The notes below the pieces were generated by a model. The model saw only the letters and a list, made by a program, of their open reading frames with translations. It was not told the origin of the DNA and did not search any database. DNA of 64,000 nt, taken from NCBI GenBank assembly GCA_944342025.1, contig CALVMD010000001.1, positions 62,001 through 126,000 on the forward strand, in the 5' to 3' direction. Position 1 is the first letter of the stretch. Each line of letters starts with the position of its first letter. Position numbers and translations under genes: made by a program. Of the stretch, positions 22,887-54,461 are shown piece after piece. Source of the stretch: an uncultured Clostridia bacterium. Lineage in GTDB: Bacteria; Bacillota; Clostridia; Christensenellales; Borkfalkiaceae.

Positions 22887-23419
22887 TTTGCCAGGATGTC
22901 CGCCGTCAGACGACAAAGTTTGACGGCGGCATTTTCCATCTTTGCTCCCTCTTCCCCGCTCAGAAGCGAAACCGCCCCGAGACAATCGCCGCCCGCAACG
23001 ATAGGAACGATGATCTGCGCCGTCGCTTTAAAATCGGCCCCATCTGTCAGCGGCACGATGTCGCCCCCCTCGGCGAGGTTGGCGATATAACTGCGCCTGC
23101 CCTGCATGATCTTTTCCAATTGCTCGGAAATATGCTTTTTGCTGAATTCTTTGCGCCCGTCGCCCGATGCATACAGAATTTCGTCCGTGTCGCAGATGAC
23201 TGCAAGGCATCCGCTCAGATCGCTCAGCGATTTGGTCGTACCCTCCGAAAATTTTTCAAGGGTCGCGATCGGCGAATATTTTTTCAGCATCAGTTCGTCT
23301 CTGTCCGTAAAGATCTCCAGCGGGTCGCCGTCTTTGATGCGCAATGTGCGGCGGATCTCTTTGGGGATGACCACACGTCCGAGTTCGTCGATACGCCTCA
23401 CGATGCCCGTTGCTTTCAT
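22874..23419 (-). CDS. spoVT: Stage V sporulation protein T (AbrB-type forespore regulator)
   Basis: 181 aa. The N-terminal AbrB swapped-hairpin DNA-binding domain (MKATGIVRRIDELGRVVIPK, then EIRRTLRIKDGDPLEIF) is followed by a GAF-like domain from about residue 56. This is the SpoVT layout and normal length. SpoVT tunes sigma-G gene expression in the forespore. The ribosome-binding site GGGAGGG precedes the start. Its first 33 codons and upstream region are duplicated at 34988-35199. Confidence 0.94.
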   Translation of the reverse strand: MKATGIVRRIDELGRVVIPKEIRRTLRIKDGDPLEIFTDRDELMLKKYSPIATLEKFSEGTTKSLSDLSGCLAVICDTDEILYASGDGRKEFSKKHISEQLEKIMQGRRSYIANLAEGGDIVPLTDGADFKATAQIIVPIVAGGDCLGAVSLLSGEEGAKMENAAVKLCRLTADILANQFE

Positions 23420-23434
23420 TTTTCCCTCCCTTCG

Positions 23435-23460
23435 GCCGCGCGCTCATGCGCGGCTTTTTT
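23435..23460 (+). terminator. Hairpin in the spoVT leader; plus-strand terminator shape
   Basis: GCCGCGC / GCGCGGC stem (23435-23441 with 23448-23454) followed on the plus strand by TTTTTT. On the plus strand it could end antisense transcripts read through from the YwaF-like gene; on the minus strand it is a spoVT 5'-UTR hairpin. Confidence 0.6.
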
Positions 23461-23469
23461 GTCGAAAAT

Positions 23470-23498
23470 GAGTATGCGTAACTTTTTTCCGTTTATTC
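23470..23498 (-). promoter_or_regulatory. Putative sigma-G/F promoter of spoVT
   Basis: Minus strand GAATA (23494-23498), 17-bp spacer, CATACTC (23470-23476), close to the sigma-G consensus (G-x-ATR, then CATxxTA). spoVT is a known sigma-G target in Bacillus. No good sigma-A promoter is seen there. Confidence 0.6.
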
Positions 23499-23539
23499 CG
23501 TTTTTATCCGATTTCATGAAAAATGCCGCCCCAGGCTAT

Positions 23540-23738: not shown

Positions 23739-23775
23739 AGCAAAAAAGGATACCGCTCGTTTGCGGTATCCTTCC
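23739..23775 (-). terminator. Terminator of the ubiquitin-like conjugation operon
   Basis: AAGGATACCGC / GCGGTATCCTT perfect 11-bp stem (23746-23756 with 23763-23773), followed leftward by TTTTTTG, 26 bp after the last gene of the operon. Confidence 0.88.
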
Positions 23776-23800: not shown

Positions 23801-24463
23801 TCAGACATCACCGTCTTCGTCCTCATTTTCTCCGTCTTCGTCTGTGCGTTGCAGGCGTTCAAAGAACGCGCTGCTCCCACCTTCATCGTCGTTTATATCT
23901 TCGCCATCCTCGCCGGCACGGTACAGGCGCTCGAAAAGTTCGCGACGGCGGTCAAGGAGCTGCTGCAGGCGCGTGTGCGCATTTCTCCGCCAGCGATCGT
24001 CCGCACTATCTCCCCCGTCAACCTTTCCTTCGGGCGGGAGGCCGTGGGTAACGCGCTCGAGCGACTCGGCGCGGTCAAACAGAAGTCCCAGCCCGATCCG
24101 CTCAATGTGCTTGAACATCGCTGCGGACACCTCCTGCTTCTTCATGGGAGCCTCCAGGTGAACGATGAGCGTGCCGCTCTCCTCCATTCGAATGCCGCCC
24201 GCCTTGAAAGAATTGGAAATGCTCGCCAGATATTCGCCGAACGCAACGCGATGTTCCTCCGCGCAGGTGATGTTTGGATAGAGCGAAAATAAAAGGTATT
24301 CGACGTCGCGATCGATGCGCACAAATTCCAGAATCGTCCTGCTGCGGAAATAGAAGAGGCAGAAAAATCCCTCCGCTCCGCCCTGCAAGCGACCCCAGAA
24401 ACGGCCGTCCTGCCTTTGATAATAGTGTTCTATATTTCGGAACGTCTTTTCAAAATGATCCAT
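23801..24463 (-). CDS. Unknown protein with acidic repeated C-terminal tail (last gene of Ubl operon)
   Basis: 220 aa from the ATG at 24463, which follows a GGAGGAGG site; a TTG 5 codons earlier lies within that site and is rejected. The first 130 residues look like a compact alpha/beta domain (FEKTFRNIEHYYQRQDGRFW..FFCLFYFRSRTILEFV..YLASISNSFK..GTLIVHLEAP), somewhat like YbjN or secretion-chaperone folds, but I do not recognise a family. The tail contains two copies of FERL-x-R-x-x-EDGE and ends in a run of D, E and G. It is co-directional with the E1/E2-like genes and may be an adaptor or substrate; this is inference. Confidence 0.7.
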   Translation of the reverse strand: MDHFEKTFRNIEHYYQRQDGRFWGRLQGGAEGFFCLFYFRSRTILEFVRIDRDVEYLLFSLYPNITCAEEHRVAFGEYLASISNSFKAGGIRMEESGTLIVHLEAPMKKQEVSAAMFKHIERIGLGLLFDRAESLERVTHGLPPEGKVDGGDSADDRWRRNAHTRLQQLLDRRRELFERLYRAGEDGEDINDDEGGSSAFFERLQRTDEDGENEDEDGDV

Positions 24464-24539
24464 AAGTTCCTCCTCCAATGATGCTTTTCAGCCGCGAGCC
24501 ATCCTATAGCGGCGCGCGGTGCCCTTGCAGGGTCTTCCT

Positions 24540-25061
24540 TCAAGGCTTGCGGTACCTTCCGTCGCTGCCGACGATCAGCTTGCCCGTATAACCGCGGAGA
24601 TCGTACGGGTCATCCCTGCGGGAACGTGCGGAATGGGCGTGTTTTTTGGATACCTTACGCACGGCAAAGGCGATCATCCAAACGAATCCGGCCGCCGCTG
24701 CAGCGCAGACCGCTGTCAGGACGATGTCCGCAAGAAGTTCCGCGAACGAGACGTTCCAAGCGGGGAATGCCCCAAACAATGCACACCAAAGCTCCTGTCC
24801 TTCCCCGGTAAGGGCCGCAGAAAGGGCCTCCTTTTCCGAAAGCTGGATCGTCCATGCGGTGTCTCCGGCGACCGCCTCCGCGAGGCGGGAAGACAGCCCG
24901 AGAGCTGGAGCGCAGCACACCGCCGCGGCGCCCGCGGCCAGCGCACAGGCACAAACGGTATGCACGGGAGCGTGGCGCAGCCCCGCCGCGACAGCCCAAA
25001 CGAAGGCGGCAGACAAGGCAAAAACGCCTAGATACAGACATGACAAGATGAAAAGCTGCAT
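24540..25061 (-). CDS. Small membrane protein of the Ubl operon
   Basis: 173 aa. There is an N-terminal hydrophobic segment (residues 2-25), a second Ala/Cys-rich one (about 33-52), an extracytoplasmic loop of about 55 residues, and a third at about 108-132. It ends in a basic, soluble tail with DDPYDLRGYTGKLIVGSDG. The start has AGGAGG 7 nt upstream. No family is recognised. It suggests that some step of the pathway takes place at the membrane. Confidence 0.7.
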   Translation of the reverse strand: MQLFILSCLYLGVFALSAAFVWAVAAGLRHAPVHTVCACALAAGAAAVCCAPALGLSSRLAEAVAGDTAWTIQLSEKEALSAALTGEGQELWCALFGAFPAWNVSFAELLADIVLTAVCAAAAAGFVWMIAFAVRKVSKKHAHSARSRRDDPYDLRGYTGKLIVGSDGRYRKP

Positions 25062-25133
25062 AAAAAACCTCCTGAAATTTGTATTAGACGCGAACGAAGA
25101 GGAGCTCTCCCCGCCCGCACGGACCGAATACCT

Positions 25134-25814
25134 TCATCCTTTCTCCCAAGCGTCCAGTTCAATGTCCGCTTCGGGATACCCTGCCCCGCAGATGCCCGCG
25201 TATTCGTTAAAGCGATAATAGCGCGGAAGCAGCGTGTTCGGCAGGAAAATATGTGTCTTCTCCGCCTCGCGGTCAGAGACGAGAAAGAACCTGCCGCGCG
25301 CGGGGACGCAGGACGAGACGGGAACCGCCGCCGTCATGTCGACATTGAACCATCCCTCCCCCTGCGGAAGAGAGAGGCGGACTTTGTTCCACGCATGAAG
25401 GGAGCCGCCGCCCCGCCGCCACCTGCCGATGACGATCACCGAAGGGATCAGGACAAGAGCGCACAGCAGACCGAACAGTTTTGCGCTGCCCGCGCAAACG
25501 CACTTGTTTTCGAGCAGCGGAGCGACGAAATCATAGCTGAGCGGGTACGCCCCGGCGTCATGCGCGGCGGCATAGTCGTAGCGCACGGTCGTCGCAAAAT
25601 AGTTGTTGATGCGGCGAACATATTCATATCCGCTCACTCCCTCCCCGTACAGCCTGCCGCCGAGGGCAAGGAGCTTTTCGTACAGCATGCCGACGGATCT
25701 CCCCCCGTAAATGCGCGGGCGGAAACCGCGCATTAAGCAGGCATACAGATCCTCCTCGTTGGCGACCAGCACCTCCGCCCCGCGCCGCTCAATGGGGAGT
25801 ACGGCGCGATTCAT
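25134..25814 (-). CDS. Transglutaminase-like cysteine protease/acyltransferase
   Basis: 226 aa. The core of the transglutaminase-like fold is visible: nucleophile Cys107 in NKCVCAGSAKLFGLL (compare the usual GxCxGxA), His140 in SLHAWNKV and Asp159 in FNVDMT, in the right order and spacing. The region from residue 60 (YEYVRRINNYFATTVRYD) matches the helix before the Cys. A stretch LLCALVLIPSVIVI follows the nucleophile. In a ubiquitin-like operon such an enzyme could cleave or transfer amide bonds. Its start overlaps the preceding stop (ATGA, 25811-25814). Confidence 0.75.
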   Translation of the reverse strand: MNRAVLPIERRGAEVLVANEEDLYACLMRGFRPRIYGGRSVGMLYEKLLALGGRLYGEGVSGYEYVRRINNYFATTVRYDYAAAHDAGAYPLSYDFVAPLLENKCVCAGSAKLFGLLCALVLIPSVIVIGRWRRGGGSLHAWNKVRLSLPQGEGWFNVDMTAAVPVSSCVPARGRFFLVSDREAEKTHIFLPNTLLPRYYRFNEYAGICGAGYPEADIELDAWEKG

Positions 25815-26296
25815 CCCCTTTTCACCCGAACGATGATCTCGTCCTTTTCGTCGAAAAAACCGGCAGGAAGGCGCAGTTCGGCGATACCGTTTTCGTCAAA
25901 CCGTGCGTCGATCCGGCTGTCCGGCGCGGGGGCAGCGTCGATGGCGGCGCGCCGTTCCCCCGCTGACGGGCACGGAGCGGAATCCTGCAAAACACCAACC
26001 GATTTGATGGGCTTGCCCCGCAGAGCCTTCGCCCACGCCCATTCGTCAGGGCGGGGCGGCTCGTAAGTCTGCGCCTTTTCGGTAAAGAGAACGTCCGCGG
26101 GGAGCGGTGCGCCGAGCGTCTCCCCGACAACCGGGTACGCATCCGTACACGCCGCGTAACAGGTGCGGCAGAGTATACTCGAAACCCCCCTGCCCAAATC
26201 TACCGTCTCATACGTTTCGCGGCTCATCGTGCCGCACTGCTTACAGGTCTGCCCGACAGATCCGGGTGAAACGATCTTTCTTGCAAATTTTTCCAT
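25811..26296 (-). CDS. Zinc-binding treble-clef-like small protein of the Ubl operon
   Basis: 161 aa. Two cysteine pairs, C18-x-x-C21 and C43-x-x-C46, form a likely zinc site with a spacing seen in treble clefs and ribbons. The rest is a proline-rich linker and a C-terminal beta-rich piece (IAELRLPAGFFDEKDEIIVRVKRG). A RING-like E3 role is conceivable but unproven: only four ligands are seen, while RING needs eight. AAAGGAGG precedes the start. It lies 12 bp downstream of the JAMM-E1 gene. Confidence 0.65.
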   Translation of the reverse strand: MEKFARKIVSPGSVGQTCKQCGTMSRETYETVDLGRGVSSILCRTCYAACTDAYPVVGETLGAPLPADVLFTEKAQTYEPPRPDEWAWAKALRGKPIKSVGVLQDSAPCPSAGERRAAIDAAPAPDSRIDARFDENGIAELRLPAGFFDEKDEIIVRVKRG

Positions 26297-26308
26297 TGTG
26301 ACCTCCTT

Positions 26309-27934
26309 TTATCCTTCGATATGTATGCGAAGATACCGGTGCTGCTGCATGTCGCCCGTACAGACGACGTAATAATGGTCGCGGGGCAGCGGATAATCGC
26401 CTAAATGCAAGGCTCCGAGCGTCACTGTACCGCCCCTGCCGACGATCTCCTCGCTCATGATCTTGCTGCGGACGGGACCAGGCGCGCCGCGCACGATATA
26501 CAGGGTCAAAAAAGAGCGGGGGCGAAAGGCGATGCCCGTGAGCAAAGACGCGACCATGTCGATGCAGACAAATCCCTCCTCTTCCCTTGAGAAACAGGTG
26601 CTCAGCTTGTCATACCAAGCCCCTTCGGGTTCGTCCAGATGCAGAAACAATTCGGGGATCTGCCCCTCGGTATGCAGTAGGCTGTGCGCACAGCTGCCCG
26701 TTACGGCTATTTTCTCCCGGCGCAGGACAGGCCCTGCACCCAAGAGCTCCCCGAACGTCCAGACAGATGTGTCGGCGGGATACGTTCCGCGGAGCAGATC
26801 CAGGATGCGCTCCGCCGCAAAATGCCCAACGATTGAAGAGGACGTCATCACCTGCGGCTGCACCTCTTTCGGGACGGCGCCGCCCGCGCAGGAAGTGCGC
26901 TCGAGCAGCTTTTCCGCAGACCGATTGAAAGTTAGGTGTTCGCAGTCGTAGCAAGCGCAGCCCCGTGAAGGCGGTTCTACGCAGACGGTGCCCGAAAATT
27001 TCGGCTCGCCGAAGACGCCCTTGTAGGACGTGCCCGCATTGACGAACCATGCTCCGGCAAGTTTTGCATTGACGGAGGCGAACTGGCGAACTTCACTGTT
27101 GTCGGCGGGGCAATACACGATATCGAAATACCTCATAAACCCGCCGCCGAGCAGCATCGCGTCCGCCCTGAGCCCGACGAAGCGGTACTCCCCGCGGCAG
27201 AGTTTCGCCGCGGCGCGGGCGGTCTCCTCCGCCTTGGGTTTCCCCGCTGCACCGACCGCGTCTACAATGGCGGAGCGCGGCGCGTTTTCAATGCCGAACA
27301 GATCGGAATCGACTAACAGGATGTCGAGCGGCTCCCCCGAGGCGAGCAGATCGCGCAAGGTCGCCGAACCCAGCGTCCCGCAACCGATCCAGAGGATCTT
27401 TTTCGCTCTCCCGGGAATAAATCCGTCGCTCCGGTACAGGACCGCGGGCAACGGACTGCGCGCGCCATACACCTCGACGGGGCTGGGTTTGCGCTCGGGA
27501 AGGACGCGGAACACGGTCACCTTTTCATATTTGCCGTCCACGGTATAGCGGCGGCAGAGGATACGGCGCGTGGAGGGGGAAACGACCATGATATAATCGG
27601 GAAATAAGCGCATCATGTGTTCGTCCACCCCCGATATAAAGGCGTCAAACGCGGCATGCGAATGGACGGTAAAGACATGTACGTCCTGCAGGCGCAGCCC
27701 GTGTTCCTTTGCATAGCGCATACGGTAAAGGGAGACCTTGTCCCGCTCCTGCGCCGAAAAGGTGAATTCCGCGCCGCTTCCCACCCCCGCACAGGGGAAA
27801 TACTCGACGGCGACGGCCGTCTGTTCATCGATACATACAGCGAGCAGAAACCCGCCGCATTCGTGCCGGCTGTCCTCATTGATGTGTTGAAAAATCGCTT
27901 GTTCAATGCCATACGACATGATAAGCCTCTGCAT
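26309..27934 (-). CDS. Fused JAMM/MPN peptidase and E1-like (ThiF) adenylating enzyme
   Basis: 541 aa. Residues 1-145 are a JAB/MPN domain with a complete JAMM site: Glu25 (ECGGFLL), H91-S-H93, seven residues, S101-x-x-D104. Residues 170-400 are an E1/ThiF Rossmann domain: IGCGTLGS (184-190), acidic VDSD (208-211), ENAPRS and the Lys232 region, then a zinc knuckle C326-x-C328-x-x-C331 and a candidate catalytic Cys349. Residues 400-541 are an additional domain I do not recognise. JAMM enzymes trim or remove Ubl tails and E1s adenylate the exposed C-terminal Gly. Start chosen at AGGAGG plus 8 nt; two upstream ATGs lack sites. Confidence 0.9.
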   Translation of the reverse strand: MQRLIMSYGIEQAIFQHINEDSRHECGGFLLAVCIDEQTAVAVEYFPCAGVGSGAEFTFSAQERDKVSLYRMRYAKEHGLRLQDVHVFTVHSHAAFDAFISGVDEHMMRLFPDYIMVVSPSTRRILCRRYTVDGKYEKVTVFRVLPERKPSPVEVYGARSPLPAVLYRSDGFIPGRAKKILWIGCGTLGSATLRDLLASGEPLDILLVDSDLFGIENAPRSAIVDAVGAAGKPKAEETARAAAKLCRGEYRFVGLRADAMLLGGGFMRYFDIVYCPADNSEVRQFASVNAKLAGAWFVNAGTSYKGVFGEPKFSGTVCVEPPSRGCACYDCEHLTFNRSAEKLLERTSCAGGAVPKEVQPQVMTSSSIVGHFAAERILDLLRGTYPADTSVWTFGELLGAGPVLRREKIAVTGSCAHSLLHTEGQIPELFLHLDEPEGAWYDKLSTCFSREEEGFVCIDMVASLLTGIAFRPRSFLTLYIVRGAPGPVRSKIMSEEIVGRGGTVTLGALHLGDYPLPRDHYYVVCTGDMQQHRYLRIHIEG

Positions 27935-27972
27935 ATGCGATACCTCCTGCATGATTTGCGGCAATGCGCCGC

Positions 27973-28206
27973 TCAACGGAAATGCAACAAGCGGGAAAGG
28001 AGCGAGCGCTTCTTTTCGGCGCGTTCGCCCGGCGGAAGGACGCGTTTTTCCCAGATAAGCCGGTCGGCGCATTCACTGCACAGGCGGCGCCAAAGGCCGT
28101 CCTCTCCCTGCACCTCGATCCCTTTCGGCGTGTAGACGCAACGGCAGCATGTACAAAGTTTGAGTGCACCGCCTTCGGGGATCCTTGACAACAACGCTTT
28201 TTTCAT
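27973..28206 (-). CDS. Small cysteine-rich protein of the Ubl operon
   Basis: 77 aa with C18-x-C20-C21-x-C23 and C43-x-x-C46, a possible zinc finger, followed by a basic tail (RAEKKRSLLSRLLHFR). The start at 28206 has GGGAGG upstream; the open frame runs further 5' only as a shadow of the E1-like gene. No family recognised. Like the 161-aa protein, it could be a binding partner of the E1 or E2. Confidence 0.65.
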   Translation of the reverse strand: MKKALLSRIPEGGALKLCTCCRCVYTPKGIEVQGEDGLWRRLCSECADRLIWEKRVLPPGERAEKKRSLLSRLLHFR

Positions 28207-28217
28207 GGGGTACCTCC

Positions 28218-28949
28218 CTACAGCCGAATGCGACGGATGCCGCCCGCACCGACGCGGAAGAGAAGGCCTCCGAGCAAAGGATTTCCGCGGATGAGAACCT
28301 GCAATGCGAGTTCGGACGCGATATCCGCCAAAAAGACTGATCCTTCGCACGGCGCACGCTCGTCGCGGAAGCAACGTCTGCGGGCTTCCAGGCTTTCGGG
28401 AAAGAGCAGGTAGACGGCGCCCTCTCCCTCTCTGCCTTTGAGAACGACGGCAGGCTTACCGCAATAGGCCGCGGCGCGCAGACTGCTGCGCGGCAGCGGG
28501 CCGACGGCGACGAGAAAATCGTAGCTTCTGATCATGCGCTCCGGCGGCTTTTTGCTGTGCAGCGCCGCGAATACGCCCGAAAACGGGGTACTCCCGGACA
28601 GCCGCTCCGCCACGGTGCGGGCGGCAGACCGACCGTCCGGCAGGACCGCCGAGGAGCAAAGGCCGATGCGGCCCACCCCGGACAAGGCACAGTTTTCCGC
28701 CACCCGCTCCATCGCCGCGGCATCGTTCCCGGCGATGAGGATGCCCTTCCCCTGCACAGCGCACAGGGAATGCGCGAATCTCTTATCGATATCGCCGCGC
28801 TTGCTTTTAGGAACACGATCACGGGAAACGTATTCAGCGTATTCCGCACCCAGCTTTCCGCTAGGCGCTCGCAGGGCGTCGGAAAAATATTCCGCGCACT
28901 CCAGGCAGCAGTGTTCCAATGAGGCAGCGATCTCTTGCAAATTATTCAT
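28218..28949 (-). CDS. Degenerate E1-like (ThiF-fold) protein
   Basis: 243 aa. From residue 60 it shows the E1 Rossmann pattern with a changed nucleotide loop (GILIAGNDAAAMERVAENCALSGVGRIGLCSS in place of GxGxxG..G). Near the end there is the E1-typical closing block (FLADIASELALQVLIRGNPLLGGLLFRVGAGGIRRIRL compared with helix-LLLG-PL-G-LL-FD). The acidic and Arg/Lys adenylation residues are not evident, so it is probably catalytically dead and may pair with the active JAMM-E1 as in heterodimeric E1s. The N-terminus has a C14-C15-x-x-C18 cluster. Start has AAAGGAGG. Confidence 0.7.
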   Translation of the reverse strand: MNNLQEIAASLEHCCLECAEYFSDALRAPSGKLGAEYAEYVSRDRVPKSKRGDIDKRFAHSLCAVQGKGILIAGNDAAAMERVAENCALSGVGRIGLCSSAVLPDGRSAARTVAERLSGSTPFSGVFAALHSKKPPERMIRSYDFLVAVGPLPRSSLRAAAYCGKPAVVLKGREGEGAVYLLFPESLEARRRCFRDERAPCEGSVFLADIASELALQVLIRGNPLLGGLLFRVGAGGIRRIRL

Positions 28950-28962
28950 GACATGCCTCCTT

Positions 28963-29529
28963 TTAACCGCCGAAATAATGGGCAAACTTCTTCCGAAGAC
29001 CGACGGTATCCAGCGAAAAGGTGCTCGGAAGGGTTTTGCGCGCCTCCTTTTGCAAGGCCGCTTTGGTGCGCATGATCTCAGAAATACTCGTCCCCATGCT
29101 GTTGGAGGCGCGGTCTGCCGCCGCCTTGTCCGTGACATTCGTACGGAGAACGGTTTCCACCATCCATAGGGCGAGTTCTGTGATATTCGCGGAACGGTTG
29201 ACCCCGCCCCAGCAGGGACTGCCCGCGGGAAAGATATTACAGTGACGGAACGCCTTGTGCGCTGCCAACTCGCCCACATATATCTTAAATTCGCCCTGCT
29301 GGAAGGGTCGGACACGGATATCCCCGTTGGGCAAAGGGGTGAGCCAGGTCATCGGAAGAAGACAGAATATACAGCCGACCTGCCCTTTGTCATACGGGAT
29401 GCCCTGAAATGTCAGGACCGCCTTCGTCGGATCGGTGCTAAAACGGCTGACTCCGCCGAAAGGCACGCCGAGCGTCATCGCGATAGCAAACCCGATCTTC
29501 CGATACATTTCGAGTGTAGTAGTTGCCAT
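28963..29529 (-). CDS. E2-like ubiquitin-conjugating-fold protein (Prok-E2/PRTRC-B-like) ending in Gly-Gly
   Basis: 188 aa. It contains H96-C97-N98, seven residues, C106 (GSPCWGG), which has the spacing of the eukaryotic E2 signature HPN..G-x-x-C, so Cys106 is the candidate thioester cysteine. The preceding strands (GQVGCIFCLLPMTWLTPLP..IRVRPFQQGEFKIYVGELAAHKAF) fit the prokaryotic E2 family that includes PRTRC protein B. After the Cys there is the usual helix (ITELALWMVETVLRT). The last residues are HYFGG, a Gly-Gly end unusual for an E2. Start with GGAGG at 29529. Second gene of the operon. Confidence 0.78.
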   Translation of the reverse strand: MATTTLEMYRKIGFAIAMTLGVPFGGVSRFSTDPTKAVLTFQGIPYDKGQVGCIFCLLPMTWLTPLPNGDIRVRPFQQGEFKIYVGELAAHKAFRHCNIFPAGSPCWGGVNRSANITELALWMVETVLRTNVTDKAAADRASNSMGTSISEIMRTKAALQKEARKTLPSTFSLDTVGLRKKFAHYFGG

Positions 29530-29614
29530 GACAGACCTCCTTTTCCCCGCAGACCGCCCGAACGGCCCTTGCGTCCGGCGGGCGGTCTGCCTGCGGGACA
29601 TTTATTTTTTGGGC

Positions 29615-29947
29615 TCAGCCGACCTTGGCTTCGACAGAGACGGTGACGGAAAGGTCTTCCCCGTCTGCCGCCTCGATGATCTCAATTGCCTCGCGCTGGG
29701 CGGACAGCGGACTGTTCCAGTCAAGCGCGACGCTGCGGGAAAAATCATGTGAGGCGAGGCGGGCACAGAACGTTCCGCCGTTACGGTAGGCACCGCTCTC
29801 TATCAGACTTTTCAACTCGGGGCTGATCTCGCCCTCGCCGAGGCGGGCAACGCTTTCCTGAATGATGCCGGAAATCGGTTGCTCGACGGATGCAGTGGTG
29901 CGAAAGATGCACGAGTCGTTAAGTGAAATTATAAGATTTGCGTTCAT
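29615..29947 (-). CDS. Candidate ubiquitin-like modifier (first gene of the operon)
   Basis: 110 aa. Predicted layout is strand-strand (NLIISLND, CIFRTTASV), helix (SGIIQESVARLG), helix (SPELKSLIESG), strands (GTFCARLAS, SRSVALDW), helix (REAIEIIEAA) and a last strand LSVTVSVEAKVG ending in a terminal Gly. A beta-hairpin start, central helix and C-terminal Gly fit a beta-grasp Ubl such as PRTRC protein C, but the protein is longer than usual and I see no sequence match. It is the best Ubl candidate because it is first in an operon with E1, E2 and JAMM genes. It may instead be an accessory protein. Confidence 0.5.
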   Translation of the reverse strand: MNANLIISLNDSCIFRTTASVEQPISGIIQESVARLGEGEISPELKSLIESGAYRNGGTFCARLASHDFSRSVALDWNSPLSAQREAIEIIEAADGEDLSVTVSVEAKVG

Positions 29948-30319: not shown

Positions 30320-30943
30320 ATGGAGAAAAACGAAAGCATTGACCTGTTCGCGCATGCCAAGGCGCTTGCCGACAGCACGGAAACAGACCCGAGAAGATTG
30401 GACCCGGAATACAGGGATGTGATCATCGAATTGCACTGGAATTTTGCCTGCCCGGATATCGGACTGGTCGACAGCAATAACCGACAGGTTATCGACCTGC
30501 GCGAGACCGGAAAAGTTTTATATGCGCTGCGGAACGACCCCGTTGTAAGGAAAAAAATCTGCCGTCACTCCCGCGTGTATAAAGAAGGCCTCTATCTCGG
30601 TGTTTTCATCGAACCGGGCGTTACACGCACCAATATCCGCCGCGACCCCTGCAAAAGAAATTATAACTGCGAGGGTTGTGAAGAATATTATACAGACTGC
30701 GTGAGCACACGATCCCTCGCGCGCTACTTTGCTCCCGCGATGACCGAAAATCAGATCAAGGAGATAGAAACCTATACCAAGAACAACGGAGAAGAGCATG
30801 TCGCGCAGAATATCACTCTGCCCAAACTTCTTCTCTACGCTCGCCTCAGCGAACGACCTCTGCGTGATTTACTCATCCTCAGAGACGGCTACTACCTGGC
30901 AGAGGACGGCTATATCTATAAAGAAGAAATTAAAGACGATTAA
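30320..30943 (+). CDS. Unknown cytoplasmic protein of the radical-SAM cassette
   Basis: 207 aa. No signal peptide or membrane segment. A middle region holds several cysteines (RRDPCKRNYNCEGCEEYYTDC), which could bind a metal or an iron-sulfur cluster. The rest is mixed helix and strand, ending with an acidic tail. No family is recognised. It is the first gene after a strong promoter and lies 17 bp before the peptide gene, so it is probably needed for making, sensing or exporting the peptide. Confidence 0.7.
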   Translation: MEKNESIDLFAHAKALADSTETDPRRLDPEYRDVIIELHWNFACPDIGLVDSNNRQVIDLRETGKVLYALRNDPVVRKKICRHSRVYKEGLYLGVFIEPGVTRTNIRRDPCKRNYNCEGCEEYYTDCVSTRSLARYFAPAMTENQIKEIETYTKNNGEEHVAQNITLPKLLLYARLSERPLRDLLILRDGYYLAEDGYIYKEEIKDD

Positions 30944-30960
30944 TCGAAACAGGAGAAACA

Positions 30961-31107
30961 ATGAATACAGAAAATAAACAGCAGCCCACGCTGACGGACG
31001 TCAGCGCTACAAACGGGCAATACAGTTCCATGAGCTGTGAACCTTCTGACGAATACGAATCCCCCGCTTCATCCTGCTCTCCGGATTCAGGATGCTGGCC
31101 CGACTAA
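30961..31107 (+). CDS. Putative RiPP precursor peptide, 48 aa
   Basis: Starts MNTENKQQPT and ends CSPDSGCWPD, with CAGGAG 6 nt before the ATG. The N-terminal half is polar, leader-like and Cys-free (residues 1-22). The C-terminal half has three cysteines (26, 39, 45) among Ser, Pro, Asp and Glu. It ends 5 bp before the radical-SAM/SPASM gene, whose ribosome-binding site overlaps its stop. This is the usual place and form of a thioether or other radical-SAM-modified peptide precursor. It is too short for routine ORF calling. Confidence 0.7.
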   Translation: MNTENKQQPTLTDVSATNGQYSSMSCEPSDEYESPASSCSPDSGCWPD

Positions 31108-31112
31108 GAAGG

Positions 31113-32321
31113 ATGTTTGAGATCAACGGCGGCGTCTTTTTCGTCGAAGGTGCGGCGGGCGGCGCGATCTACTTTCCCAAGCGGGAAAAGATCTATTCCG
31201 TCAACAGAGAGGGAGTCCGCATCCTGCGCAGTTATGTACGGGGCGAACCTCTTACCAAAGAGACAGACCGCACCTATCTGGAAACACTGCGAGAGGAAGG
31301 GCTGATTTCGGACGGGTTTATACCGCGCCCCTTCGATCCCCCCAAAGACGAGACGCTCACGCTGCACTTTGCCTGGCTGGAACTGACGGAGGGGTGCAAC
31401 CTGAAATGTCTGCACTGCTATGAGGGGAACGACCACCGCAAACGGGAGAGTGAGCTCGGTTTGCAGCGCTGGAAAGAGATCTTGCGGGAGCTACGCGGCG
31501 CCGGGTGCGAGCGCATCCAGCTGACGGGAGGAGAGATCTGCACCGTCCCCTTCGCCCGCGAGCTGCTCGTGGACGCGGCGGGGCTCGGGTTCCGCGAGAT
31601 CACCGTCTTCACTAACGCGACGCTGCTCGACAGAGAATGGATCGACCTCTTCAGGAGGTGCGGCGTCTGCGTCCGCTTTTCCCTCTACGGAGCGAGCCCA
31701 GAAGTCCACGACCGCGTGACTGCGACGGAGGGAAGCTTTGAAAAGACGACCGCAAACGTCAAATCTATGCTGGCACAGGGCATTTGCGTCAGCCCTGCAA
31801 TCGTGATCTTGCGAGAAAACCAAGAGGACGCGGAAAATATCCGGAAATTCGTCCTCTCTCTCGGCATGCGCTATGATGGCTTTGACGTCATCCGCTGCGT
31901 GAAGGGCGGAACGCAGCCTGTGCATCTCCCGACGGACAAGGCCGCCCTGCATTCGCAGTACCGCTCCCGTCCCCTCTTCCGCGTCACCAAAGAGAGGTTT
32001 TCCGATGCCCTGCACCGCAACACCTGTTGGTACGGGAAGTTTGTCGTCATGCCGACGGGAAAAGTTGCCCCCTGCATCTTCGAGCGCGGACTGCTGCTGG
32101 GAGACCTGTCGCGCCAGTCTGTTGGCGAGATCTTACAGTCGGACGCTCTGAAAAAATGCTGGCTGTTGGACTTTTCTCAGATTGAGGAATGCCGAGAGTG
32201 CGAATACCGCTTCGCCTGTAAAGACTGCAGGCCCCTCGCCCGTGCCTGCGGCACCCCCCTTGCAAAAAACCCGCGCTGTCTCTACGACCCCGCAGAGGGG
32301 ATCTGGAAAAAGCCCGTATAA
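31113..32321 (+). CDS. Radical SAM/SPASM peptide maturase
   Basis: 402 aa. The radical SAM cluster motif is C95-x3-C99-x2-C102 (TEGCNLKCLHCYEGN). QLTGGEIC is the SAM-binding GGE motif, with E in place of the common GGEP. Residues 1-80 may hold a peptide-recognition winged helix (GGAIYFPKREKIYSVNREGVRILRSYV). The C-terminal SPASM region has CWYGKFVVMPTGKVAPC and then C-x2-C-x5-C-x2-C (CRECEYRFACKDC), ligands for auxiliary 4Fe-4S clusters. Such enzymes form thioether or C-C links in peptides. The start at 31113 is preferred over 31092, which lies inside the peptide gene, because AAGAAGG precedes it. Confidence 0.9.
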   Translation: MFEINGGVFFVEGAAGGAIYFPKREKIYSVNREGVRILRSYVRGEPLTKETDRTYLETLREEGLISDGFIPRPFDPPKDETLTLHFAWLELTEGCNLKCLHCYEGNDHRKRESELGLQRWKEILRELRGAGCERIQLTGGEICTVPFARELLVDAAGLGFREITVFTNATLLDREWIDLFRRCGVCVRFSLYGASPEVHDRVTATEGSFEKTTANVKSMLAQGICVSPAIVILRENQEDAENIRKFVLSLGMRYDGFDVIRCVKGGTQPVHLPTDKAALHSQYRSRPLFRVTKERFSDALHRNTCWYGKFVVMPTGKVAPCIFERGLLLGDLSRQSVGEILQSDALKKCWLLDFSQIEECRECEYRFACKDCRPLARACGTPLAKNPRCLYDPAEGIWKKPV

Positions 32322-33025: not shown

Positions 33026-33070
33026 TAAAAAAAGCCATGAAAAACGTTCTGTTTTTCATGGCCTTTTTTT
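33026..33070. terminator. Bidirectional terminator
   Basis: AAAAAAAGCCATGAAAAAC / GTTTTTCATGGCCTTTTTTT inverted repeat with a 5-nt loop, 40 bp after the stop of the leftward AlbA/HATPase gene. The rest of 32849-33109 holds no gene. Confidence 0.85.
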
Positions 33071-33109
33071 GCCCGCTATATTCCGCCGCAGAACACAGGG
33101 CGGTTGCAT

Positions 33110-34585
33110 TTATCGTTTCAGCATATATCGACGGTTGCGGTTTGCGCCCTCTGTAATGAGAATATCCTCGGATGCAAGCTCCTTCAGATAATCGCGCGTT
33201 CTCGACTCTTTCAGCCCGATTGCCGCCGCGATTTCCGCGCACGAAGCCGACGCGTGGTCGGTCAGATATTCGATGATCGAGCGCCTTGCGTTTACGCTTA
33301 TCGCCGAGTTTTTATCGCCGATTTTTATCGCCGATTTTTTATCGCCGATTTTTTTCTCCTTTGCGGACAACGAAAGGATCAGCGCAGTCCTTTCCGGCTC
33401 AAACGTCTCCCGGATAACCGGCTCTGCCCAGCCCTGTTTTGACCAAACGGAAAATATGTTCGGGATTCCGCTGCCCGCCCTTTCCCCGATGTTGATCAGG
33501 TTAAACATCTTCAGCAGCGCGCTGTTGCGCGGGTCGGATATACCCCCGCTCTTCGCCGCATCGATCTCGATCCGAAACCCGCCCGGGTTGGAAAAAGTGA
33601 TCCGGTCTTTTCTCTTGATGATGACGACACCCTGCCGCCCGTAATAATCGGCGTTTACAAGGCAGTTTGCCAGAGCCTCCCGCAGTGCCTGATGAACGGG
33701 CGTATCGTCCACCCGCACGCCGCCTTCCATGGTAAACGGAACCTTAATATCCTGCGTCAGCCGCCGGTAAACGCGGAAATAAAAATCGTATACGTTCCCG
33801 CTCCAATCCCCCGAGGAAGAAACGATGCGGTCTGTCCAACGAAGGGATTCGTCGTACTGTTCCTGATAATCCAAAAAATATGCAGGGAATTCCCGCGTGA
33901 TGCAATACTCGTTCCCGAACATCAAAAGCCCCGCCGTCGTGGGGTGCTTCTTTCCGCCCCCGCCGATGCCGACCGCACCGAGCCGCAAGAGAAAATCCTC
34001 GTCGTTCAGCGTTTCCCAGACATGGTTCGGGCGCGACAGGTGCATGCGCTTGCGGTAGCCGTCGATGCTTTCGGCGTTGAAGACCGATAAATCCATCTCC
34101 TCCAAAACGAGCATATCCGCCGTTCGGACGGACGCATCGCGCACCATCGTGCGGTACTCTTCCTGCGTGCAGCGATAATCCCCCTCGCCGTTGCGGCGGT
34201 ATGTTCCCGTAACGGGATTCCCGTCTATGTACACAGGGCGGTAGCTTCTGGCGGCGCGGGGAATATCGATGACGATGATATTCTTTCCGTCGACGGTCTG
34301 AACGTACACGTCCTTGTCCGACAAAATATTGACGCTGACTTTTTTCGGATTGTTGATGATATTCCAGAACTCTTTGATCAGCGCCGCAGGATCGGGCAGC
34401 CCTCCGTCGGCCACGCGGAGACTCTTGTCCGCCCCCTCTTCGACGCCGAGCAAAATAATTCCGCCCAAAGTGTTTGCAAACGCGGAATATGTTTCCCAGA
34501 TGCTCTTCGGCAATCCGCCGAGCGACCTCTTCGCTTCGATGCGGTTATTCTCTCTGTATTCTTCCAGGCGGGAAAAATCAATCAT
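33110..34585 (-). CDS. Schlafen-AlbA_2 / HATPase_c_4 ATP-binding regulator with C-terminal winged helix
   Basis: 491 aa. The N-terminal AlbA_2 domain (ENNRIEAKRSLGGLPKSIWETYSAFANTLGGIILLGVEE) is followed by the HATPase_c_4 pattern (HQALREALANCLVNADYYGRQGVVIIKRKDRITFSNPGGF..RNSALLKMFNLINIGERAGSGI). Then come a Lys/Ile/Gly/Asp repeat (KIGDKKSAI, KIGDKNSAI) and a winged-helix DNA-binding end. This family is annotated as putative transcriptional regulators. Start at 34585 because a promoter occupies the DNA before it; the longer frame is upstream of the start of transcription. Confidence 0.88.
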   Translation of the reverse strand: MIDFSRLEEYRENNRIEAKRSLGGLPKSIWETYSAFANTLGGIILLGVEEGADKSLRVADGGLPDPAALIKEFWNIINNPKKVSVNILSDKDVYVQTVDGKNIIVIDIPRAARSYRPVYIDGNPVTGTYRRNGEGDYRCTQEEYRTMVRDASVRTADMLVLEEMDLSVFNAESIDGYRKRMHLSRPNHVWETLNDEDFLLRLGAVGIGGGGKKHPTTAGLLMFGNEYCITREFPAYFLDYQEQYDESLRWTDRIVSSSGDWSGNVYDFYFRVYRRLTQDIKVPFTMEGGVRVDDTPVHQALREALANCLVNADYYGRQGVVIIKRKDRITFSNPGGFRIEIDAAKSGGISDPRNSALLKMFNLINIGERAGSGIPNIFSVWSKQGWAEPVIRETFEPERTALILSLSAKEKKIGDKKSAIKIGDKNSAISVNARRSIIEYLTDHASASCAEIAAAIGLKESRTRDYLKELASEDILITEGANRNRRYMLKR

Positions 34586-34771: not shown

Positions 34772-35086
34772 TTATTTTCTGCTCTTTATGTATCCCCTGT
34801 CTGCGAGCGAACGAAGGGCAAGCATAAACACATCCTCCGCGGAAAAATCGGCGAACTCCCCGGGTTTCGCTGCCGAGTTCCCCTTCGCCTGCAAATATTC
34901 GAGGAGGGCGGTGTTCGGGCGCAGCTTTGCGTAATTTTGCGAATTTTCGCTCTTTTTGTCGGACATTCCTTTCAAGGTTATCAATGACGGGTCGCCGTCT
35001 TTGATGCGCAGCGTGCGGCGGATCTCTTTGGGAATGACCACACGTCCGAGTTCGTCGATACGCCTTACGATGCCCGTTGCTTTCAT
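34772..35086 (-). CDS. Chimeric ORF: SpoVT N-terminal AbrB domain joined to an unrelated small protein
   Basis: 104 aa. Residues 1-33 equal SpoVT 1-33 (AbrB DNA-binding hairpin) because this DNA is the second copy of the 212-bp repeat. From residue 34 (SLITLKG) the sequence is unrelated. The fused part contains its own start (MSDKKSENSQ, ATG at 34966) with GAAAGGA directly before it, so a native 64-aa gene may have been trapped in frame. The chimera keeps the spoVT ribosome-binding site and putative sigma-G promoter and could be an expressed AbrB-like protein, or a by-product of the duplication. Confidence 0.65.
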   Translation of the reverse strand: MKATGIVRRIDELGRVVIPKEIRRTLRIKDGDPSLITLKGMSDKKSENSQNYAKLRPNTALLEYLQAKGNSAAKPGEFADFSAEDVFMLALRSLADRGYIKSRK

Positions 35087-35199
35087 TTTTCCCTCCCTTC
35101 GGCCGCGCGCTCATGCGCGGCTTTTTTGTCGAAAATGAGTATGCGTAACTTTTTTCCGTTTATTCCGTTTTTATCCGATTTCATGAAAAATGCCGCCCC
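34988..35199 (-). repeat. 212-bp direct repeat, copy 2
   Basis: Second copy of 23321-23532, same orientation, 4 mismatches. Its outer end forms one arm of the terminator of the LRR lipoprotein gene. In copy 1 that arm has no partner, which suggests copy 2 lies in the ancestral context upstream of spoVT. Confidence 0.95.
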
Positions 35200-53837: not shown

Positions 53838-53887
53838 ATTAAAGTGCGCAAAAAGAAACAAATTTGTTTCTTTTTGCGCACTTTAAT
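53838..53887. repeat. 50-bp perfect palindrome
   Basis: Bases 53838-53862 are the exact reverse complement of 53863-53887, with no loop bases; the centre is AAATTT. It lies 64 bp after the ferritin stop and 116 bp before the GNAT start. It may be a terminator for ferritin or a cruciform-forming site. Confidence 0.9.
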
Positions 53888-53951: not shown

Positions 53952-54461
53952 TCACAGGATCAGCGACGGCGCCGCGTAAACGCGCGTTTTCAACTCAGCG
54001 TCGAGAAGGTACAGCGAACGAACGTCTCCTCCGAACAATTCCATCTTTCGGATGAGATCGGATGCATTTTTTTCTTCTTCCCCCTGTTCTTTCACGAACC
54101 AATCGAGAAACTGCATGGTTCTAAAATCCTTGGCGGTATTCGCAGCCGCATAGATCTCATTGATCTCGCCCGTAATATATTTCTCGTGCGCAAGCGCCGC
54201 TTTTAAAGGCTGTAAGTTATCGCCGGCGGGCGTTTCGGGTTTACCGATCGCCTCGAAAACGACTTTTTCTCCGTTATTTTGGAGATACTTGACCATAAGC
54301 AGAGCGTGATCCATCTCTTCCTGCGCCTGCACATAAAACCAATTGTAAAACCCGTCAAGCCCGCACTCCTGGTAAAAGTTAGCAAATTCAAAATACAAAT
54401 ACGCAGAATAAAACTCTTTATTGACCTGACTGTTGATAAGACCGCTGACTTTTTTGTCCAT
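53952..54461 (-). CDS. ftn: Ferritin (iron storage, non-haem)
   Basis: 169 aa. Four-helix bundle with diiron ligands: Glu in NKEFYSAYLYFEFANF, E-x-x-H in AQEEMDHALLM, and the second pair in FVKEQGEEEKNASDL. Length and order match bacterial FtnA. It stores iron and protects from oxidative damage in the cytoplasm. Own promoter; a GGTATGGGGTCACTCCCATA inverted repeat lies in the leader and may be regulatory. Confidence 0.94.
   Translation of the reverse strand: MDKKVSGLINSQVNKEFYSAYLYFEFANFYQECGLDGFYNWFYVQAQEEMDHALLMVKYLQNNGEKVVFEAIGKPETPAGDNLQPLKAALAHEKYITGEINEIYAAANTAKDFRTMQFLDWFVKEQGEEEKNASDLIRKMELFGGDVRSLYLLDAELKTRVYAAPSLIL

Follow-up and report, generated by a model that had tools for sequence, protein, structure and literature searches.

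The DNA analyzed here, hereafter the window, is a stretch of 64,000 nucleotides from an uncultured Clostridia bacterium (contig CALVMD010000001.1), in which an earlier note had described an operon for conjugation of a ubiquitin-like (Ubl) protein. The host draft genome comprises 1.57 Mb and is 77.9% complete. It carries spoVT (Pfam SpoVT_C match) and, as judged by eye, spoVAD- and spoVAE-like genes, and the host is therefore of a spore-forming type. The operon consists of nine co-directional open reading frames (ORFs) on the minus strand, positions 23801-29947, with gene 1 at the 29947 end and gene 9 at 23801. From gene 1 to gene 9, the intergenic gaps measure 85, 13, 11, 38, 12, −4, 72, and 76 bases. 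Start positions were adjusted for the E2 (29529), gene 3 (28949), gene 4 (28206), the JAMM-E1 (27934), and gene 9 (24463). The features, with the evidence for each in brackets, are:

29615..29947, minus strand: gene 1, probable ubiquitin-like modifier of 110 amino acids, C-terminus ...KVG (ORF, colinear counterpart, AlphaFold2 (AF2) model, Foldseek)
29530..29614, minus strand: hairpin in the Ubl-E2 gap, without a T-run (folding versus shuffles)
28963..29529, minus strand: gene 2, probable E2 conjugating enzyme of 188 amino acids with H96, N98, G103, and C106 (motif, model, Foldseek)
28218..28949, minus strand: gene 3, 243 amino acids, no family given (ORF, counterpart by position at L005 7266-8249)
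27973..28206, minus strand: gene 4, Cys-rich protein of 77 amino acids with CxxC pairs, possible Zn finger (ORF)
26309..27934, minus strand: gene 5, JAMM peptidase-E1 (ThiF) fusion of 541 amino acids (Pfam, PDB profile, residues)
25811..26296, minus strand: gene 6, CxxC...CxxC protein of 161 amino acids, probable Zn finger (counterpart L005 10525-11037)
25134..25814, minus strand: gene 7, transglutaminase-fold protein of 226 amino acids, C107/H140/D159 (Pfam PF01841, 5e-10)
24540..25061, minus strand: gene 8, membrane protein of 173 amino acids (ORF, Pfam scan, ORF list of the relative)
23801..24463, minus strand: gene 9, protein of 220 amino acids with an acidic tail (ORF, Pfam scan, ORF list of the relative)
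about 23745-23775, minus strand: terminator-like hairpin with T-runs past gene 9 (folding, z −5.07)

The earlier note had proposed a single transcript with both a terminator and a promoter. The nine co-directional ORFs and the hairpin past gene 9 agree with a common transcript and its terminator: on the operon strand none of 200 shuffles equaled the fold (z −5.07), and the terminator scan assigned it to the plus strand. The promoter was less well supported. A sigma-70 scan of the minus strand returned no promoter upstream of the operon, and only an extended −10 element (TGCTATGAT, 30063-30055, minus strand) was recognized there by eye.

A colinear seven-gene operon was identified in one relative, genome G168, which belongs to the same order and to another family (L005, 6270-11735). 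Its gene order is Ubl, E2, gene 3, a 220-amino-acid protein, JAMM-E1, Zn protein, and transglutaminase. Because the operon recurs colinearly in a genome of another family, the gene set is a conserved unit, and the conserved synteny on which the earlier note had staked its reading was thus found in one relative. MAFFT identities between the window and G168 were 29% for the Ubl, 31% for the E2, 31% for the JAMM-E1, 25% for the Zn protein, and 33% for the transglutaminase. For the E2, Zn protein, transglutaminase, and JAMM-E1 pairs, none of 1000 shuffles reached the observed score in either global test.

By its sequence, gene 5 certainly encodes a fusion of a JAMM peptidase and an E1. The fusion that had been proposed was thus borne out, with all JAMM and E1 residues present in the 541-amino-acid protein. 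Pfam ThiF matched residues 177-384 with 45.1 bits (cut-off 28.1), and Pfam Prok-JAB matched residues 11-119 with 21.2 bits, under its cut-off of 25. The JAMM-E1 of the relative scored 79.1 and 47.3 bits for ThiF and Prok-JAB, respectively. Searched against the PDB, a two-sequence JAMM-E1 profile matched the NEDD8-activating E1 at 9.5e-9 and Rpn11 at 6.8e-4, and profile-profile comparison of gene 5 returned clostridial E1s (98.6%), a PRTRC E1 (92.0%), and a clostridial JAB (77.3%). The JAMM residues E25, H91, H93, S101, and D104 are all present and invariant in both operons, as are the E1 residues G184, G186, G189, D209, D211, N217, R220, K234, and D278; we take the spacings of these adenylation residues to agree with those of MoeB. 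The candidate for the thioester Cys is C349, whose placement, by eye, resembles that of the R-K-S-C Cys in clostridial E1s. Gene 5 therefore combines the complete adenylation residues of an E1 with a putative thioester Cys. A C-terminal domain shared with clostridial E1s was also considered and found no support.

Gene 2 is probably an E2 conjugating enzyme with the ubiquitin-conjugating (UBC) fold, judging from its sequence and model. The E2-specific residues attributed to it are present in the pattern H96-x-N98-x4-G103-x2-C106, which is kept in the relative at 31% identity. The His-Asn-Cys spacing is presumably that of eukaryotic E2s (HPN). H-x-N-x4-G-x2-C, a pattern picked after being seen, occurred in 31 of 200,000 shuffles of the protein. 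The AF2 model, built from two sequences, was poor (predicted local distance difference test score, pLDDT, of 54.3); its elements follow the order helix, strands, motif loop, helices, which is the order of UBC proteins. Among the best 50 of 620 PDB matches in a Foldseek search with this model, 47 were E2 entries by title. The UBC fold, against which the earlier note had asked to be judged, is thus favored, although it is unproven at a pLDDT of 54.3.

Gene 1 is probably a ubiquitin-like modifier of the beta-grasp fold, as suggested by its model. At 110 amino acids it has room for one Ubl domain. It ends in VG, and its counterpart in the relative (L005 6270-6599) ends in TVGD. The pair exceeded 1000 of 1000 shuffles in the global test and 998 of 1000 in the end-free test; the local comparison was not significant (p 0.18). 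The AF2 model showed the strand and helix order EEHHEEHE of a beta-grasp protein at a poor pLDDT of 47.1, weaker than the gene 2 model. By title, 20 of the best 50 of 956 Foldseek matches were SUMO, ISG15, or ubiquitin, and most of the remaining rows among these 50 were PB1 domains and superantigens, which also have the beta-grasp fold. As with gene 2, the fold that had been assumed for gene 1 was favored by the model but is unproven at this pLDDT.

In the conserved core of either operon, the gap between Ubl and E2 is the only one longer than 40 bases. In the window it folds at −38 kcal/mol (z −2.36, 3 of 200 shuffles equal) and in the relative at −27.6 kcal/mol (z −3.27, 1 of 200 shuffles equal). 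The folds of three further gaps in this operon of the window were unremarkable (z −1.26, 0.06, and −0.47). The hairpin may end or protect a short transcript, which would supply the tag in excess.

The transglutaminase-like Cys protein noted earlier was confirmed in gene 7, which by its sequence certainly has the transglutaminase fold and a complete Cys-His-Asp triad. It matched the transglutaminase core PF01841 at 5e-10, and C107, H140, and D159 are conserved in both operons. No signal peptide was seen in it by eye. Of 200 genomes of the order, 57 had transglutaminase homologues, mostly as larger open frames, and the gene is too common to serve as a marker for the operon. Gene 4 matched no family in the Pfam scan, and its origin as a paralogue of gene 6 was unsupported. 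Its slot in the relative is occupied by the 220-amino-acid protein (L005 8253-8915), which has no demonstrable kinship with the 77-amino-acid gene 4 product. It is paralogous to the Zn protein encoded in the relative (z 11.1), with Cys residues lost as judged by eye. The N-terminus of this protein copies the relative's Zn protein and is followed by a repetitive part that appears beta-helical by eye. Genes 8 and 9 had no counterpart in the ORF list of the relative's operon, in which no calibrated search was made.

Gene 3 had been read as a second, dead E1, and this was not upheld by Pfam, NCBIfam, PDB, profile, or pairwise comparisons. Searches of Pfam, NCBIfam, and PDB gave it no support, and its E1-profile score lay within the range of 4000 shuffled controls. 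In profile-profile comparison its best match, with clostridial E1s, reached E 0.06. An alignment of gene 3 with gene 5 scored 59 (23 of 5000 shuffles equal) and paired non-corresponding regions, which counts against a dead E1; the gene-3 protein of the relative gave nothing in pairwise comparison. A few results favor the dead-E1 assignment. Pairwise comparison with four clostridial E1s gave p 0.047-0.067, centered on the first Rossmann unit, and the relative's gene-3 protein had a weak NAD_binding_7 match (E 0.12). Similarity between the two gene-3 proteins is itself marginal (p 0.05-0.10, 23% MAFFT identity).

The distribution of the operon was investigated with alignments of its main proteins. 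Full-length JAMM-E1 matches were found in 2 of 201, 2 of 396, 1 of 391, 1 of 148, and 1 of 169 genomes. These sets overlap, and the matches came only from the genome of the window and from G168. Partial matches occurred in 2, 6, 5, 0, and 1 genomes of the same sets, most of them over the E1; in one genome, G195, the match covered the JAMM. With the E2 alignment, 1 of 299 genomes matched, and this was the window's own. No match came from the remaining 39 genomes of the genus (G001-G039), which by their numbers belong to the 201-genome set. Viral contigs contained no match to the E2, JAMM-E1, or transglutaminase alignments, plasmids and phages none to the JAMM-E1, and plasmids none to the E2. 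The gene combination is rare in the sampled genomes.

Comparison with known systems relied on the passages of Iyer et al. 2006 (PMC1779556) and PMC11354881 that define them, with further reading in PMC12687455 and PMC13373217. Like type 6d (PRTRC), the operon has a stand-alone (here probable) Ubl, a stand-alone (here probable) E2, a JAMM, and an E1. Its gene 2 motif N-[IV]-x3-G-x-x-C-x-G is that of PRTRC_B from two plasmids, with which gene 2 gave a weak, motif-centered profile alignment (3 of 60 column shuffles equal). The likeness to PRTRC raised in the earlier note is partial. The E2s of type 6d lack the upstream His according to those passages (Iyer et al. 2006, PMC1779556), whereas gene 2 has a conserved classical H96. 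The JAMM, from residue ~11, is fused to the E1 as in type 6e and is not a separate JAB with its own N-terminal domain, and a transglutaminase and Zn proteins are present here. No PF14460 (Prok-E2_D) match was found in gene 2 at E ≤ 1, with a search that works on two plasmids, nor was any found in 149 genomes of the phylum (in which no control matched) or in the one plasmid searched.

Type 6e (polyUbl) is described in these passages as having tandem Ubls, a Cys-less E2/RWD-like protein, a JAMM N-terminal on the E1, and the Zn signature C-x3-C-x35-38-H-x2-C (PMC1779556). The operon shares the N-terminal JAMM (Prok-JAB 11-119, ThiF 177-384) and a Cys-rich putative Zn-finger protein. It differs in its single probable Ubl, in an E2 with a conserved C106, and in the C-x2-C...C-x2-C pattern of gene 6. 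Bil systems resemble it, by the review description, in having Ubl, E1, E2, and JAMM in one operon. As described there, BilA has two Ubl domains, BilB has a CEHH active site, and BilC and BilD are separate proteins (PMC11354881), unlike the single tag domain, the His upstream of the Cys, and the fused JAMM-E1 found here; a transglutaminase is not part of that description. Likeness to CBASS (cyclic-oligonucleotide-based antiphage signaling system) type II Cap2/Cap3 and to 6A-MBL was limited to weak E1-domain matches (NF058523, 27.2 bits with a cut-off of 320; PADLOC E1-E2, 1.1e-5). The E2 is not fused to the E1, and no nucleotidyltransferase or metallo-beta-lactamase matched among the nine genes in Pfam. 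By the descriptions consulted, the operon resembles 6d, 6e, and Bil yet fails a defining feature of each; the earlier note, too, could name no set that matches this combination. A literature search, which did not extend to the primary Bub and Bil papers, returned no account of it.

Other Ubl-related gene sets were encountered. Five other Clostridia genomes (L021-L025) share a different conserved Ubl cluster, with a 90-amino-acid Ubl ending in ...LQPEITAG, a 395-amino-acid E1, and an HPN-containing E2 fused to membrane and FHA-like (by eye) parts; most also have a trypsin-like protein and a JAB protein. Genome G126 contains another small set of E1, E2-like, and JAB genes (L006 7337-9680, minus strand; E2 and JAB by eye), which adjoins a wider cluster without assignment.

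The surroundings of the operon were also examined. Two copies of a 212-base direct repeat (98% identity), at 23321-23532 and 34988-35199, cover the beginning of spoVT and sequence upstream of it. They enclose an 11.7-kb stretch in which the operon is accompanied by a radical SAM gene and an SLFN_AlbA_2 gene. In all eight same-genus loci fetched, spoVT and the region downstream are shared, and similarity stops upstream of the spoVT start, within about 100 bases of it. Among these eight, the L089 contig ends at this point, and L096 has a further match at window positions 33051-33397. Because of the repeat and this loss of similarity, the data fit an arrival of the segment at spoVT. No recombinase was noticed, and a defense hotspot upstream of spoVT was not clear by eye in the ORF lists of six same-genus loci. 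Divergent from the operon, positions 30320-32321 (plus strand) encode a 207-amino-acid Cys-rich protein without a Pfam match, a 48-amino-acid Cys-containing ORF, and a radical SAM-SPASM protein, which together look like a small cluster for a ribosomally synthesized and post-translationally modified peptide (RiPP). Elsewhere in the window, a perfect 50-base palindrome (53838-53887) lies near a ferritin-like gene (by eye, 53952-54461).

The core claim of the earlier note, a Ubl-conjugation operon with an E2, a JAMM-E1, and a transglutaminase-like enzyme, stands. From its gene content, its active-site residues, and its synteny with one relative, we propose, with a probability of about 0.7, that the operon encodes a reversible Ubl-conjugation pathway. 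We infer its reaction steps as follows. The E1 half of gene 5 would adenylate the C-terminal Gly of the 110-amino-acid Ubl, take it up as a thioester (C349 being the candidate), and pass it to C106 of the E2, in which H96 and N98 may be positioned as the His and Asn of the eukaryotic HPN. The E2 would then make the isopeptide bond on a target, which the Zn-finger protein or proteins may bring, and the hairpin after gene 1 might allow surplus production of the tag. The JAMM half of gene 5 would trim a precursor of the tag if one is made (in the relative the tag ends in VG-D) and remove tags, and gene 7 may act as a second Cys hydrolase on the tag or on tagged targets. Given conjugation, analogy and patchiness suggest at roughly even odds a role in phage defense or another conflict function. 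Weak support for defense comes from the region 5-7.5 kb downstream of the G168 operon, which encodes an AlwI-type restriction endonuclease and a D12 methyltransferase.

Several observations weigh against this proposal. Only two members (in the window and in G168) are known, and no E3 was identified. Gene 2 gave no family above noise in Pfam, NCBIfam, PADLOC, or PHROGs and none in the PDB sequence search; its profile was near noise against known bacterial E2s (2 of 60 and 3 of 60 column shuffles equal), and its Foldseek matches had a best E of 0.14, none of 620 below 0.001, and TM-scores of 0.2-0.3. Gene 1 ends in VG rather than GG, matched no family in five library scans or in searches of PDB sequences, and reached a best Foldseek E of 0.011, with none of 956 matches below 0.001.

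The transglutaminase-fold protein could itself make the covalent link as a transamidase, with the E2-like protein a carrier or inactive. The full Cys-His-Asp triad in both operons would suit such an enzyme, but the E2-like protein also keeps its Cys, His, and Asn in both, and in the order most of the homologues (57 of 200 genomes) are encoded by larger open frames. Hydrolases are common among bacterial proteins of this fold, and we consider a transamidase quite improbable. It is very improbable that a degenerate or decaying gene set is held here by chance: the set is rare, patchy, and absent from the other sampled genomes of the genus, yet all frames are open, the catalytic residues are intact, and a genome of another family retains the gene order at about 31% identity. 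A less improbable, though still unlikely, possibility is that the E1 and the JAMM work in sulfur transfer or in a small-molecule or peptide (RiPP) pathway, with gene 1 as carrier and no protein tagging. ThiF-type E1s and JAMM proteins also appear in such pathways in rows 4a-4e of Iyer et al. 2006 (PMC1779556), and the radical SAM-SPASM gene with its 48-amino-acid Cys-containing ORF adjoins the operon divergently. However, an E2-like protein is foreign to those pathways, no rhodanese domain is present, and no radical SAM gene was seen by eye in the 20 kb listed around the relative's operon.

Within the conjugation reading, the operon might represent a distinct class, with a stand-alone tag, a stand-alone E2 of the eukaryotic His-Asn-Cys type, a JAMM-E1 fusion, Zn-finger proteins acting as adaptors in the manner of an E3, and a Cys protease of the transglutaminase fold that serves as an effector or a second deconjugase. 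In its boldest form, gene 3 would be a far-diverged, inactive E1 partner, giving an asymmetric E1 as in eukaryotes. We regard such a distinct class as unlikely. Few bacterial ubiquitin-like pathways have been tested so far, and each new architecture shows exchangeable parts. The comparison of the two members already names a conserved core and the residues to replace. If the conjugation reading is true, the operon would provide a compact, separately expressible cascade for the study of the origins of E2 chemistry and of double deconjugation.

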